Shown here piece after piece: positions 50,385-61,661 of a stretch of 64,000 nt of DNA (positions are counted from its first letter, which is position 1; each line of letters begins with the position of its first letter). This stretch comes from an uncultured Poribacteria bacterium (GTDB lineage: Bacteria; Poribacteria; WGA-4E; WGA-3G). Under the pieces are notes generated by a model, which saw nothing but the letters and a program-made list of their open reading frames with translations, was not told the DNA's origin and did not search any database. A program made the translations under genes and the position numbers. The stretch spans positions 1,550,001 to 1,614,000 of the forward strand of contig OX639973.1 of assembly GCA_951828385.1 (NCBI GenBank). The letters run 5' to 3'.

Positions 50385-50430
50385 TGTAGGAGCAAGTGTT
50401 TTTACTTGGGTATTTCTTGTCGCTCGCGAT
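50385..50430. repeat. Dispersed repeat TGTAGGAGCAAG...TCGCTCGCGAT
   Basis: 46-base copy of the family described at 20277 and 59092. Confidence 0.7.
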
Positions 50431-55812: not shown

Positions 55813-57609
55813 ATGTCCTACACATATAAACAGATAGTACAATTTTGGAAACTGGTAAATCTTCACAAGATTGCAGCAGGACTTGTCTTATGCCTCGCTA
55901 TTACCACTACAGGCACCGCTCAGACTCCAAATTTTCCAGAACGGATGCCAATTGTTGAACGTCCCTTTTCGGACGACGCCGACAAGTTCAGTTTCGCGAT
56001 TATCGGCGATAAAACCGGCGGCGGTTTAGATAAGTGGCCAGTATTCGACCGCTCGATTGATGAAATCAATACACTGAAACCTGATTTTGCCATCATGGTC
56101 GGCGATTTAATACAAGGCGACACAAGAGACCTCGAACAACTCGCAGCGGAATGGAAAGAATTTTGGCAACACGAATCCGATCTCATCGTCCCATTTCTGC
56201 CCTTACCGGGTAACCACGACATTACCAACCCAGTGATGTTTGAATATTGGAAAGAACACCTCGGACGTACCTATTCGGCGTTTACATACAAAAATTGCCT
56301 GTTTATAATGCTGAATACCGAGGAATGGCATCATCCTGCACACGCAGAAGAATGGGATTGGGAAAAAGGCTGGTTTGGAGAAGAGCAGACGCAATATGTG
56401 GAAGATCAATTGGCAAAACACCCGGATGTGCGGCATACGTTTGTCTTGTTGCACAGACCGCTATGGCTTCAGGAACACTCCGGTTGGGAAAAAATTGAAG
56501 CCGCACTCGGCGAACGCGCATACACAGTCTTCGCAGGGCACTATCATAATCTAACCCTTCATACACGCAACGACCATCGATACTTCGTTCTCGGTGCTAC
56601 CGGTGGCGGATTTACACCGCAGGAGGTACGAGAATACGGCGCATTTGACCATTATAGTATCGTAACCGTAGATGACGAAGATGTTCATATCGCGATTATT
56701 GAACCCGGAAATATCCATCCCGCGGATATCTCAACGGCAGCGTTCAAAGCTCGACTTGCGAACCTGCTCACTTTTAAACCGCAATTCAATCTCAATAGAG
56801 ATCAGCTACTTTCCAGCGGAAACCTTGAAATAACCCTCGAAAACACGCTTGAAAAACTGCTGAAACTTGAAATAGTTTTCAATTCAAATGAGAATTGGCA
56901 GATCTCCCCAAATCAACTATCCCTTCAAGCCAAACCGGGGCAAACTACAAAAACAACTATCACCCTTTCAAGCCCATCGGATGACTTCCTTCCACTGCCT
57001 ACCTACAATTATTCAGCACTATATGGTGGTGAACAATTGTTAAACAGCCGGAAATTGTTTCACCCGATCGACAGAGAAGATATGCATATCCTCAAAGATT
57101 GGATGCTCCTCGGCCCCTTTGCCCTCGGTGTGACAGAGGCACCCGCAGACCGGAACGATGTCCCCCACAGTTTTCTTGAAATACCATTACCGGAACCCGA
57201 TCTTGACAAGACTTATCAAGGCCAATCAGGAGAAATCACTTGGCAAGAGCATCGTTCAGAATCGGAACGTGTCAATTTAAATGATACTTTTGGGAACGCT
57301 GAGTTGGCGTATGGTTTCGGTACTTCCTATATCAAGAGTCCTGACGCACGACGTGTTTTTGCACAAATCGGATGGGGCAGTAATCTCGGAAAACTCTATC
57401 TTAACGGCGTTGAAATTCCCGGTGCTGCTATTCCGGGCAAACATCTATTTTCTTCGTGGGCACATTTTGAATTACCGCTGAAACAGGGGTGGAACACCTT
57501 GACGATTTTATCTCGAGATTATAATGGATGGTGGGATTATCGGATGGAAGTTGCAGACGCTACAAACGCGTTGCAGTTCAGCGCGAAACCCACCGATCCC
57601 CAAGATTAA
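55813..57609 (+). CDS. Secreted calcineurin-like metallophosphoesterase
   Basis: 598 residues. A hydrophobic N-terminal segment (IAAGLVLCLAITTTGTAQ) acts as signal peptide or anchor. The metal motifs are in order: FAIIGDKTGGG, MVGDLIQGD, LPGNHD, LLHRPLW and FAGHYHNLTLH (residues about 55-260). The C-terminal half is beta-rich and ends with a domain (GWGSNLGKLYLNGVEIPGA, WNTLTILSRDYNGWWDYRMEV) typical of glycan- or surface-binding modules. It cleaves a phosphate ester or diester outside the cytoplasm; the substrate is unknown. It begins immediately after the third PhyH gene. Confidence 0.9.
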   Translation: MSYTYKQIVQFWKLVNLHKIAAGLVLCLAITTTGTAQTPNFPERMPIVERPFSDDADKFSFAIIGDKTGGGLDKWPVFDRSIDEINTLKPDFAIMVGDLIQGDTRDLEQLAAEWKEFWQHESDLIVPFLPLPGNHDITNPVMFEYWKEHLGRTYSAFTYKNCLFIMLNTEEWHHPAHAEEWDWEKGWFGEEQTQYVEDQLAKHPDVRHTFVLLHRPLWLQEHSGWEKIEAALGERAYTVFAGHYHNLTLHTRNDHRYFVLGATGGGFTPQEVREYGAFDHYSIVTVDDEDVHIAIIEPGNIHPADISTAAFKARLANLLTFKPQFNLNRDQLLSSGNLEITLENTLEKLLKLEIVFNSNENWQISPNQLSLQAKPGQTTKTTITLSSPSDDFLPLPTYNYSALYGGEQLLNSRKLFHPIDREDMHILKDWMLLGPFALGVTEAPADRNDVPHSFLEIPLPEPDLDKTYQGQSGEITWQEHRSESERVNLNDTFGNAELAYGFGTSYIKSPDARRVFAQIGWGSNLGKLYLNGVEIPGAAIPGKHLFSSWAHFELPLKQGWNTLTILSRDYNGWWDYRMEVADATNALQFSAKPTDPQD

Positions 57610-57700: not shown

Positions 57701-58492
57701 ATGTCTTACCTGAATCCGGAACTTCACAGAGACTGGAAAACGAACGGCTATCTGAAAATCCCGCGCTTTTTCTCCGCCGAAGAGGTGGAGGATCTACAAG
57801 CATGGGTCTCTGAAATCTCAGATTGGGAACCGACATCCGACAAGTGGATGCATCACTACGAATCCACGCTGGATGGACCACGACTCTCCCGCTCAGAAAA
57901 TTTCGTGCCGTATCACACCAATATGAGAGCCACCGTGACAAGCGGCAAAGTGTTAGCAGCTGTCTCCGAGTTGATGGAAGAACCTGCAGTCCTTTACAAA
58001 GAGAAAATCAACTACAAATACCCCGGCGGCGGTGGTTACGCTGCGCATCAAGACGCGCCTGCCTATGAGTTTGTTGATTACCACATCACGTGTCTGATTT
58101 CAGTAGATTCAGCGACAACAAAAAGCGGATGCCTCTATTTTTCACCGGGGCGGCATCAGGAAGGATTTATCGCGTTGGACGAAAACGGCTGTGTCGCGCC
58201 CGAAACCGCTTCGGCAATGGAGTGGGTCGCCGTACCGACAGATCCTGGGGACATTCTCCTTTTCGGCTCCTATATCCCACATAAAAGTCCGGAAAATCGT
58301 TCAGAGCAACCGAGACGTATCATCTATCTCACTTACAACGCCATCTCACAAGGCGACTGGCGCGAGAAGTATTATGCCGACAAACGGGAAGCATTCTCCG
58401 AATATGAGAAAGATGGTTCAAATCGAGACAAACAGATTAGCAAAATCGCACATTTTCAAGGAAAAACAGTAAACCATGCAAAATTACGTTGA
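57701..58492 (+). CDS. phnY: PhnY-like 2-oxoglutarate dioxygenase
   Basis: 263 residues from MSYLNPELHRDWKTNGYLKIPRFFSAEEVEDLQAWV. PhyH fold with the HxD motif in YAAHQDAPAYEF and the distal His in SYIPHKSPENRSEQPRR. KINYKYPGGGGYAAHQDAPAY is characteristic of PhnY and TmpA. PhnY hydroxylates 2-aminoethylphosphonate at C1 so that PhnZ can cleave the C-P bond. The gene overlaps the HD-domain PhnZ-like gene by 17 bases, which strongly supports the pairing. The long frame upstream of 57701 overlaps the phosphoesterase and is not used. Confidence 0.85.
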   Translation: MSYLNPELHRDWKTNGYLKIPRFFSAEEVEDLQAWVSEISDWEPTSDKWMHHYESTLDGPRLSRSENFVPYHTNMRATVTSGKVLAAVSELMEEPAVLYKEKINYKYPGGGGYAAHQDAPAYEFVDYHITCLISVDSATTKSGCLYFSPGRHQEGFIALDENGCVAPETASAMEWVAVPTDPGDILLFGSYIPHKSPENRSEQPRRIIYLTYNAISQGDWREKYYADKREAFSEYEKDGSNRDKQISKIAHFQGKTVNHAKLR

Positions 58493-59072
58493 TGGAAGTC
58501 TTGCGCAGGAAATGAGAAGCGCGACAGCAGAGCAGAAAGTTGATGCCCTATTCAACTACATGGAGGAACGCGGACAGTCGTTTTACGATGAGGTCGTAAC
58601 GCAGTTGGAACACGCACTCCAATGCGCAGCCCTCGCACGACAAAACGATGCGAGTCCCACACTCATCACAAGTGCTTTATTGCACGATCTCGGACACTTT
58701 ATCTTAGACGAACACAATGCGGATACAGCCTTCCTTGCCATGGATCTGAATCATGAGGAGATCGGTGCGGAGTATCTGGCACCGTTTTTCCCAGAAATCG
58801 TCACAACACCGATCCGCCTACATGTCCCTGCGAAGCGGTATCTATGTGCAACCGATGCCGCCTACCATGACGGGTTATCCGAGGCATCGAAAAAGAGTCT
58901 CATAGTTCAGGGAGGCGTGATGTCAGGCGAGGAACGGGAAACGTTTGAACAAATCCCACATTTCCAAGACGCGCTCACCCTACGACAATGGGACGATCTC
59001 GCAAAAGTGAAAGGGTTAGAAATGGCAGAATTAGAAACCTATCGAAACGTTGTGCAACAGTGCTTGTCATAG
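58476..59072 (+). CDS. phnZ: PhnZ-like HD-domain mixed-valence diiron oxygenase
   Basis: 198 residues. HD domain with LEHALQCAALA, ALLHDLGHF, NHEEIGAEYL and RLHVPAKRYLCATDAAYHDGLSEASKKSL. These are the motifs of PhnZ/TmpB, which oxidatively split hydroxy-phosphonates into an amino acid and phosphate. The glutamate of the substrate-gating loop (FYDEVVTQLEH) is present, while the tyrosine I recall at that loop in PhnZ appears as Phe. Overlaps phnY. Gives the cell phosphate from 2-aminoethylphosphonate or a methylated relative. Confidence 0.82.
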   Translation: MQNYVDGSLAQEMRSATAEQKVDALFNYMEERGQSFYDEVVTQLEHALQCAALARQNDASPTLITSALLHDLGHFILDEHNADTAFLAMDLNHEEIGAEYLAPFFPEIVTTPIRLHVPAKRYLCATDAAYHDGLSEASKKSLIVQGGVMSGEERETFEQIPHFQDALTLRQWDDLAKVKGLEMAELETYRNVVQQCLS

Positions 59073-59091: not shown

Positions 59092-59246
59092 TGTAGGAGC
59101 AAGCTCTGCTCGCGATACCGTTAGAGATCACATCTTCTTTGTAGGAGCGAGTGTTTTTGCTTGGGTATTTCTTGTCGCTCGCGATCTTATGAAACTTCCT
59201 TGTAGGAGTGAGTGTTTTTGCTTAGGTATTTCTTGTCGCTCGCGAT
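59092..59246. repeat. Three tandem copies of the TGTAGGAGCGAG...TCGCTCGCGAT repeat
   Basis: A short copy (59092-59116) and two 46-base copies (59140-59185 and 59201-59246) follow one another between phnZ and the next gene. Each has pairable ends (GAGCG/CGCTC). Same family as 20277 and 50385. Confidence 0.75.
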
Positions 59247-59272: not shown

Positions 59273-59950
59273 ATGAGTTATGAAACAATAGAATCTAAGT
59301 TTATCGCAACGCCAGAAAAAGGCGAAGTCTCCTCAATCCTAATGCGTCCAGACGACGCGAAATGGCTACTCGTCCTCGGACACGGTTCAAGCACAAACAT
59401 GCGAAGTTCAACGCTCCAGACGATTGCGGAACGGTTAGCAGATATTGGCATCGCAACGTTCCGTTACCAGTTCCCATACATGGAACGCGGTGGCGGTGGT
59501 AGGGAATCGGAAGCGGTAGCACTCCAAACTGTCAAATCTGCTGCGGCTGCTGCATACGAAGCCGCAAACGATTTATCCATTCTCGTCGGCGGACACTCCT
59601 ATAGCGGACGTATGTCCTCAATGTCCGCAGCGAAGGAACCGATTGAACATGTCAAAGGTCTTGTGTTTTTCGCATTTCCGCTGCACCCCTCTGGCAAAGA
59701 AGGCATAGAGCGCGCCGAACACCTCGCTGATGTCACAATTCCGATGCTATTCCTCTCTGGCACCCGCGACAAGTTAGCAGTGCTTGACCTCTTAGAACCC
59801 GTCTGCGAAAAGTTAGGCGACAAGGCGACATTACATCTGTTAGACACGGCAGATCACGGGTTCAAAGTGCTCAAACGCCGTAAAACGGAAGAAGACGTTT
59901 TCGTAGAAATGGCGCGGGTTCTCAGCGAATGGACTGAAACACTGCGTTGA
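59273..59950 (+). CDS. Alpha/beta hydrolase (KANL3/Tex30-like, dienelactone hydrolase type)
   Basis: 225 residues. Catalytic set visible: nucleophile Ser in GGHSYSGRM, Asp in FLSGTRDKLA, His in DTADHGFKVL. LVLGHGSSTNMRSSTLQTIAERLADIGIATFRYQFPYME is the oxyanion/N-terminal motif of the family. No signal peptide, so cytoplasmic; the substrate is unknown. Preceded by GAGG ten bases before the ATG. Confidence 0.87.
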   Translation: MSYETIESKFIATPEKGEVSSILMRPDDAKWLLVLGHGSSTNMRSSTLQTIAERLADIGIATFRYQFPYMERGGGGRESEAVALQTVKSAAAAAYEAANDLSILVGGHSYSGRMSSMSAAKEPIEHVKGLVFFAFPLHPSGKEGIERAEHLADVTIPMLFLSGTRDKLAVLDLLEPVCEKLGDKATLHLLDTADHGFKVLKRRKTEEDVFVEMARVLSEWTETLR

Positions 59951-60637: not shown

Positions 60638-60792
60638 TCCACTACCGCAGATAATGGTGTAGCCAGCGTTTTATAAAGGAAGTCATATTGAGTAAAACAT
60701 AGAAATGTAGTAAAATAGTGAAATAAAAGGCGATACTTTATGTCCCTTTATTTTCACTTTTGATACCTATTTCCTTTATGAAAGGTGCTCTT

Positions 60793-61215
60793 ATGACAAC
60801 TGAATCTGGAAAGTCTCCGAGATACAACGGTATTCCGAAGCAAGTTTCGCGTAAAGATTTTAATCGTTATATCTTGCCACATCTGAAGAAACGCATTAAA
60901 GGTCCAAAGCCGAAACTTTCTTTTTACAAGATATTCAACTATATCCTTTATGTTTTACATACCGGTATTCAATGGGATCAACTCCGAACACGGCGGAATG
61001 AACTCCATTGGTCGAACGTCTATAAATGGCATAATCGCTGGTCTAAAGATGGTTCCTATGAGAACCTTTTTCAAGCATCCGTCATCCACTTACTTGATAC
61101 CGACGCACTTGACACGACGTGCCTTCATGGAGATGGTTCAAACACCGTCGTGAAAAAGGGGGCGACGGTATCGGGTACTCCGGACACAAACATCAGAAAG
61201 GTGAAAAAGAGTTGA
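60793..61215 (+). CDS. IS5-family transposase, N-terminal part (orfA)
   Basis: 140 residues from MTTESGKSPRYNG (AAAGGTG five bases upstream). DNA-binding N-terminus typical of the DUF4096 region (HLKKRIKGPKPKLSFYKIFNYILYVLHTGIQWDQLR) and the first catalytic Asp in LHGDGSN. The frame ends shortly after, while the rest of the enzyme continues in the -1 frame from 61162. A slippery heptamer A AAG GGG lies at 61155-61161. Confidence 0.82.
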   Translation: MTTESGKSPRYNGIPKQVSRKDFNRYILPHLKKRIKGPKPKLSFYKIFNYILYVLHTGIQWDQLRTRRNELHWSNVYKWHNRWSKDGSYENLFQASVIHLLDTDALDTTCLHGDGSNTVVKKGATVSGTPDTNIRKVKKS

Positions 61216-61661
61216 CGATCACCGATAATCACGGGTTCATCATAGGTCCGATAACGATGAAACCCGTCAACGCCCATGATACAACGATTTTGCCGGAAGC
61301 CTTCAGCGATATAATCGCCTTTAGTCAACGCATGGGTATGGATCTTTCGGGTTCTGCTCTCACGCTTGATTCGGCGTTTGATTCTAAGGCGAATCATCAG
61401 TTGATTAGAGAACAGGGGTTGATCCCGGTGATCTATCCGAACCGTCGGAATGCTAAAGAACCTATCGTCATTGCACGTAAGTTTCGCTGGTTTGACAAAG
61501 AGATATACAAAGACCGATATAAAGTCGAGCGAACTTTCGGCTGGCAAGACACTTATCGGAGACTTGCCCTGAGCTACGATAAACTCAAAGAGACGCGTTT
61601 AGGGTTTCGTCATCTCGCATATTCTATGATTAACTTTCGTATAACTTTCAACGATTCATAA
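61119..61661 (+). CDS. IS5-family transposase, C-terminal part (orfB, -1 frame)
   Basis: 180-residue frame carrying the remainder of the DDE domain: GGDGIGYSGHKHQKGEKEL, ALTLDSAFDSKANHQLIREQG with the second Asp, and the YKVERTFGWQDTYRRLALSYD block with the catalytic Glu. It has no convincing start of its own. It is most likely read as a fusion with orfA by programmed -1 frameshifting, as in the IS427 group. An accidental frameshift mutation is the alternative. Confidence 0.8.
   Translation: MPSWRWFKHRREKGGDGIGYSGHKHQKGEKELTITDNHGFIIGPITMKPVNAHDTTILPEAFSDIIAFSQRMGMDLSGSALTLDSAFDSKANHQLIREQGLIPVIYPNRRNAKEPIVIARKFRWFDKEIYKDRYKVERTFGWQDTYRRLALSYDKLKETRLGFRHLAYSMINFRITFNDS

Follow-up and report, generated by a model that had tools for sequence, protein, structure and literature searches.

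Analysis of a 64,000-nucleotide stretch of a Candidatus Poribacteria genome (hereafter the window; the genome is a single contig of 6.66 Mb, 95% complete) uncovered two overlapping genes encoding a PhnY/PhnZ-type oxidative phosphonate pair, an assignment well supported by sequence, predicted HD fold, adjacency, and co-occurrence. We propose, with a probability of about 0.6, that these enzymes are a PhnY*/PhnZ-type pair acting on methylphosphonate and giving phosphate and formate. The observations behind this reading are the genes and their overlap, the metal-ligand positions, the lid loop and predicted fold of the HD protein, the pairing across genomes, and the closeness of both proteins to models of methylphosphonate enzymes. 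Two-gene oxidative pathways are an already known kind of system, phnY and phnZ from Poribacteria were published in 2014, and we do not claim to be first with the methylphosphonate reading of the poribacterial pair; the result is ordinary in kind and useful as a re-annotation.

The first gene (57701..58492, plus strand) encodes a 263 aa PhnY-like Fe(II)/2-oxoglutarate oxygenase of the PhyH family, a probable methylphosphonate hydroxylase, and the second (58476..59072, plus strand) a 198 aa PhnZ1-like HD-domain oxygenase that probably converts hydroxymethylphosphonate to phosphate and formate. A preliminary description of the window had reported a PhnY-like dioxygenase overlapping a PhnZ-type HD oxygenase by 17 bases, and both the open reading frames and the overlap (58476..58492, plus strand) were confirmed. 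An AAGGAAA stretch lies 5′ of each start codon. Among 50 loci taken from a scan of genome contigs, 36 Poribacteria loci with both genes were read (L002-L037), and the two frames overlap in every one of them, by 17, 11, or 8 nt. This recurrence is more than chance, and the two genes are likely translationally coupled. The same description spoke of a dioxygenase-rich operon: three further PhyH genes, the first and second separated by a pectate-lyase gene, do precede the pair on the same strand, but the PhnY model gives them 39–43 bits, compared with 351 for the PhnY-like protein, and they are ruled out as pathway members, so that the phrase holds for the neighbourhood and not for a pathway.

The PhnY-like protein matches Pfam PhyH at 105.6 bits and the NCBIfam model for methylphosphonate hydroxylase (NF052437) at 351 bits, below the curated cut-off of 500; the next-best PhyH gene of the same genome reaches 66.8 bits on the latter. 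H116-x-D118, H194, and R205/R206 are invariant in all 13 aligned rows. The AlphaFold model of this protein has a mean pLDDT of 38.4 and is unusable for fold comparison.

The HD protein scores 264.2 bits on the hydroxymethylphosphonate dioxygenase model NF052439 (curated cut-off 300) and 212.8 bits on TIGR03276 (curated cut-off 214.6), missing both. The TIGR03276 cut-off is also missed by the chain stretches of PhnZ (190.6) and TmpB (198.3) themselves, so the shortfall of the HD protein does not exclude function. Control sequences score apart on NF052439: the solved PhnZ reaches 125.5 bits, TmpB 142.5, two betaproteobacterial HD proteins 147–150, a divergent poribacterial HD protein 217, and a Gemmatimonadota HD protein 280. 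The model thus separates kinds of enzyme and places the HD protein with the methylphosphonate kind, outside the curated core. Because the NF052437 and NF052439 cut-offs (500 and 300) are missed, as they are in all 40 genomes searched, the proteins are not filed as Gimesia equivalogs but only with the nearest known kind. PhnY*/PhnZ1 of Gimesia maris (NF052437/NF052439), compared here via these models, is the best match for both proteins and shares the two-gene logic and the loop [F/Y]-Y-D-E, but differs in that the poribacterial pair falls below the curated cut-offs and that no transporter was seen beside its genes. On sequence grounds, the pair is probably most like the methylphosphonate branch of Gimesia maris and Prochlorococcus, the former described in 2019 as cited in PMC6581173.

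The AlphaFold model of the HD protein (pLDDT 89.5) predicts a PhnZ-type HD-domain fold. Comparison with VIA-align gave Z 24.1 to PhnZ (4n6w/4mln) and 23.7 to TmpB (6npa), with a range of 23.1–24.1 across PhnZ and TmpB entries, and 11.1 for the next family, MIOX. Searches with phmmer recovered PhnZ at 2.5e-33 and TmpB at 2e-32, and identity to PhnZ is 40% over 183 columns. The metal motif of PhnZ-type HD oxygenases, given as H...HD...H...H...D in PMC8177086, is represented by H46, H70-D71, H93, H116, and D173/D174, invariant in 17 of 17 HD rows, and the protein would be expected to hold a mixed-valent di-iron centre. Poribacteria carry tens of PhyH paralogues, mostly of unknown function (30–49 matches in most of 40 genomes, among the candidates scored), which would suit oxygenases of a common fold acting on a non-phosphonate substrate. 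Such a reading is very improbable, given that K120, R121, Q145, and R170 are likewise invariant in 17 of 17 HD rows and that MIOX, a non-phosphonate HD oxygenase, is distant in fold (Z 11.1 vs 24).

In PhnZ and TmpB, the Tyr of a YxxE loop sits on iron 2 until the substrate binds, and the Glu then meets its amino group, according to the account in PMC8177086. The preliminary description held that the loop tyrosine appears as Phe in the poribacterial protein. Pairwise phmmer does set a gap before the loop, so that F36 faces PhnZ Y24; in a MAFFT alignment of 76 HD rows, however, the Tyr column is Y and the Glu column is E in every row (six rows are duplicates; the split HD fragments L045 and L046, and L001, which is the window itself, were left out). 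The apparent Phe probably reflects gap placement and was rejected as a substrate clue, and since TmpB itself has the loop Tyr, even a genuine Phe would not indicate TmpB. The loop reads Y37-D38-E39 (codons at 58584..58592, plus strand), one residue fewer than Y-I-G-E in PhnZ and Y-L-G-E in TmpB. Measured against the YxxE lid, Tyr and Glu are kept and the spacing is YxE, here and in the 60/76 rows that read Y-D-E; gap placement in any single pair is ambiguous. Across the 76 rows the Tyr-to-Glu stretch is YDE in 60, YEGGE in 6, YGAE in 3, YLGE and YSGE in 2 each, and YIGE, YGE, and YAGE in 1 each. Phe precedes the loop Tyr in 58 of the 76 rows, and the actinobacterial pairs have Arg at this place (R-Y-D-E), so the residue need not be aromatic. 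Substitutions scored on NF052439 agree with this assignment: at position 36, F and Y are equivalent (264.2 and 264.3), with A at 260.2; the top-scoring residue is Y at position 37 (F 261.9, I 260.0, A 259.5), D at position 38 (E 261.8, 260.7 for both A and G), and E at position 39 (Q 261.9, A 261.2). Probed in this way, the model has the loop [F/Y]-Y-D-E, which matches that of the HD protein.

Phylogenetic analysis placed the HD proteins with this shortened loop together. In a 24-row tree the Y-D-E rows lie on one side of a branch with support of 79/95, or 99/99 without the long-branched PhnZ row, apart from TmpB, betaproteobacterial, and second-type HD rows, and in a 70-row tree the 54 Y-D-E rows form a group with support of 99/98. 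The large tree was built without six duplicate rows and both small trees without L074, one also without PhnZ; PhnZ, represented by one row with a very long branch, in one tree attaches weakly to the Y-D-E side. None of the trees includes Gimesia or Prochlorococcus sequences, likeness to these being judged via the NCBIfam models. Members of the Y-D-E group come from Poribacteria, Latescibacterota, Gemmatimonadota, and Actinomycetota and are 46–88% identical to the HD protein.

These data bear on the suggestion, made in the preliminary description, of a TmpA/TmpB-type pair, which would use trimethyl-aminoethylphosphonate. TmpA/TmpB of Leisingera caerulea (PDB 6npa) shares the HD fold and metal motif, and the phmmer match to TmpB is strong in E-value, but on the TmpB model, whose cut-off is 300, the HD protein scores 158.8 bits, compared with 334 for TmpB itself and 351 for a plasmid-borne TmpB adjacent to a TauD-type gene. 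The TmpA class is of the TauD/gamma-butyrobetaine hydroxylase type, whereas the partner here is a PhyH protein, and the loops differ. With the Phe argument gone, and with model score and partner family both against it, TmpA/TmpB identity was rejected, and use of this substrate is extremely unlikely. Nor does the phylogeny group the HD protein with TmpB, as TmpB and its plasmid relative lie far from the Y-D-E rows, in trees for which the tree tool issued a long-branch warning.

A different substrate was assigned to Poribacteria in 2014, when phnY/phnZ of two single-cell genomes, SAGs 3G and 4E, were read from 40% PhnY identity as acting on 2-aminoethylphosphonate (2-AEP) to give glycine and phosphate (Kamke 2014, PMC3909097). 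Judged by their description in that paper rather than by sequence, those genes, adjacent to one another, accompanied by a further phosphohydrolase, and from the same phylum, are very likely the same locus type as the pair here, the difference being that they were taken for 2-AEP genes and we favour methylphosphonate. The 2-AEP pair of uncultured HF130_AEPn_1 (PDB 4n6w, 4mlm, 4mln, 4n71) has the same HD fold, metal motif, loop Tyr and Glu, and pairing with a hydroxylase, and the 40% identity to PhnZ also fits 2-AEP use. The retained loop Glu speaks for 2-AEP and against methylphosphonate, as this residue contacts the amino group in PhnZ and methylphosphonate has none. In PMC10574752, GmPhnY* is described as specific for methylphosphonate, while GmPhnZ takes both hydroxymethylphosphonate and (R)-HAEP, so a Gimesia-type HD enzyme also accepts a compound of the 2-AEP route. 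Against these points, the loop of the poribacterial protein is one residue shorter, PhnZ stands at 125 bits on NF052439 where the HD protein has 264, and later work, as given in PMC8316502, distinguishes phnZ clades for 2AEP, methylphosphonate, and trimethyl-AEP and restricts 2-AEP use to the original clade. We consider 2-AEP use by the poribacterial pair unlikely. Growth of Prochlorococcus MIT9301 is reported in PMC6581173 on MPn and HMPn and not on 2-AEP.

On the favoured methylphosphonate reading, the PhyH-type enzyme would use Fe(II), O2, and 2-oxoglutarate to convert methylphosphonate to hydroxymethylphosphonate, and the HD enzyme, with its putative mixed-valent di-iron centre and Tyr/Glu lid loop, would convert hydroxymethylphosphonate and O2 to phosphate and formate. 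The role of the pair would be phosphorus supply with production of formate and not methane. We infer the substrate, products, and di-iron chemistry, as well as co-translation and phosphorus supply, as what would be expected from the named families and the literature. Full-length PhnJ was found in none of the 40 genomes, which yielded two broken fragments, so methane-yielding C-P lyase is not the likely route for these relatives. PEP mutase was not found in the pair's own genome, which thus gives no sign of phosphonate synthesis. Matches to phosphonate-binding proteins are weak at best in the 24 genomes of the window's genus (30 bits in the own genome), which, for want of an evident uptake protein, counts against the reading; 12 other members of the order have matches of 185–226 bits.

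If correct, this reading would replace 2-aminoethylphosphonate by methylphosphonate in the annotation published for a dominant sponge symbiont, and would add a formate-yielding, methane-free methylphosphonate sink in sponges. The study of sponge methylphosphonate turnover in PMC9999580 used phnJ, a marker of methane-yielding C-P lyase, and the word phnZ is absent from its text. Being compact and conserved, the pair lends itself to simple substrate tests.

The two genes occur together across related genomes. A PhnY at 334–365 bits is present in 30 of 40 genomes (own included), and PhnZ adjoins it on the same contig in 30/30; the best other PhyH match on the PhnY model in the 40 genomes is 95 bits, among the candidates scored. 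PhnZ of this type is present in 32 of the 40 (split over two contigs in one, G002). Two of these 32, the Poribacteria G025 (217 bits) and G028 (249), have no PhnY found at 334–365 bits, and in G034 and G035 the sole HD type is a second one with lower scores (156–158 bits). Outside these genomes, Dietzia and Rhodococcus plasmids carry PhnY (42–43% identity; 261/258 bits) directly before PhnZ (50%; 203/207 bits) in the same order and with the loop Y-D-E. Viral contigs yielded no relative of the PhnY-like or the HD protein.

HD genes of this type are also found without PhnY. Six Latescibacterota/Gemmatimonadota loci encode an HD protein of ~60% identity with no PhnY alongside, and in five of the six genomes (all but that of L039) the best PhnY match is at background level (82–87 bits). 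Absence of PhnY from the orphan-HD genomes is likely, only part of the PhyH candidates having been scored in most genomes (49/147 in G025, 49/175 in G028, 120/147 in G045). In all, PhnZ1-like HD enzymes without PhnY were noted at L038-L043, L044/L066, and L067, covering Latescibacterota, Gemmatimonadota, and some Poribacteria. In the three of these loci that were read (L038, L040, and L041), the orphan HD gene has beside it a divergent gene of phosphoesterase-like character whose start resembles a signal peptide; that at L040 is no more than a weak relative (28% over 117 residues, E 1.8e-5).

The occurrence of the same HD type without PhnY in Latescibacterota/Gemmatimonadota, G025, and G028 indicates that this enzyme does not invariably go with methylphosphonate hydroxylation. 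It fits the possibility that the substrate of the pair is some other small phosphonate (hydroxymethyl-, ethyl-, or hydroxyethylphosphonate, or one made in the sponge) and that Y-D-E marks a broader, multi-substrate clade, as do the two missed curated cut-offs and the spread of the group over four phyla. We regard this as unlikely, as the methylphosphonate pair is the best model match for both proteins. More speculatively, and improbable as a whole, the Y-D-E group might be a distinct shortened-lid HD branch serving sponge symbionts of several phyla, in part stand-alone on hydroxymethylphosphonate and in part acting on methylphosphonate together with PhnY; in Poribacteria and Latescibacterota the adjacent secreted phosphoesterase might strip these phosphonates from polysaccharide esters, the holobiont regaining phosphate without methane.

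The phosphoesterase in the window (55813..57609, plus strand) is of the calcineurin-like type (Pfam Metallophos, 33.4 bits), one of 11 Metallophos matches in the genome, with an N-terminus that by eye resembles a signal peptide; it had no match to PDB sequences at E 0.01. Its stop codon lies 91 nt upstream of the PhnY-like start, so the earlier placement of a secreted phosphoesterase in the same run of genes stands for the window, but the link recurs upstream of PhnY in only 16 of the 31 loci with >3 kb of upstream sequence. The other loci have an unrelated gene there, sometimes on the opposite strand (L008, L011), which indicates that the PhnY/PhnZ pair can stand alone and weakens the phosphoesterase as an obligatory partner. 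A helper role in freeing phosphonate or phosphate from esters is possible but unproven. On the other side, an alpha/beta hydrolase gene (59273..59950, plus strand; Pfam Abhydrolase_11, 129.6 bits) begins 200 nt downstream of the HD gene, and such a neighbour is present in 31 of 32 loci with >1.5 kb of downstream sequence.

Two further arrangements of HD oxygenases were noted. In one Poribacteria genus, L060-L065 (e.g. L060:5470-8666) encode a second HD oxygenase with the loop Y-E-G-G-E (TIGR03276 211.6, TmpB 183, PhnZ1 160 bits), whose neighbours in the same run of genes are a Gfo/Idh/MocA-like dehydrogenase, a PhyH gene distinct from PhnY (24.5 bits), and a gene resembling glyoxalase (these last names assigned by eye); this is possibly another oxidative route. 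A Nostoc plasmid (L076) has an HD oxygenase (TIGR03276 250.6 bits) flanked by a PhnM-like gene and PhnJ inside a C-P lyase operon; a fosfomycin thiol transferase is annotated close by.

Several other features of the window were recorded. Two near-identical copies of a 46-nt repeat occupy 59134-59246, in the gap that separates the HD gene from the alpha/beta hydrolase gene, and a third, with 2 mismatches, lies at 50385-50430; shuffling gives an expectation of 0, and the exact form occurs three times in the whole genome, on one strand only. Two overlapping ORFs at 60760-61661 together resemble, by eye, a frameshift-split IS transposase. Finally, five long minus-strand ORFs at 1950-23145 have ECF sigma factor-like starts and long C-terminal extensions, some with WD40-like repeats, and appear from inspection of their translations to be a tandem family of sigma-factor fusions.
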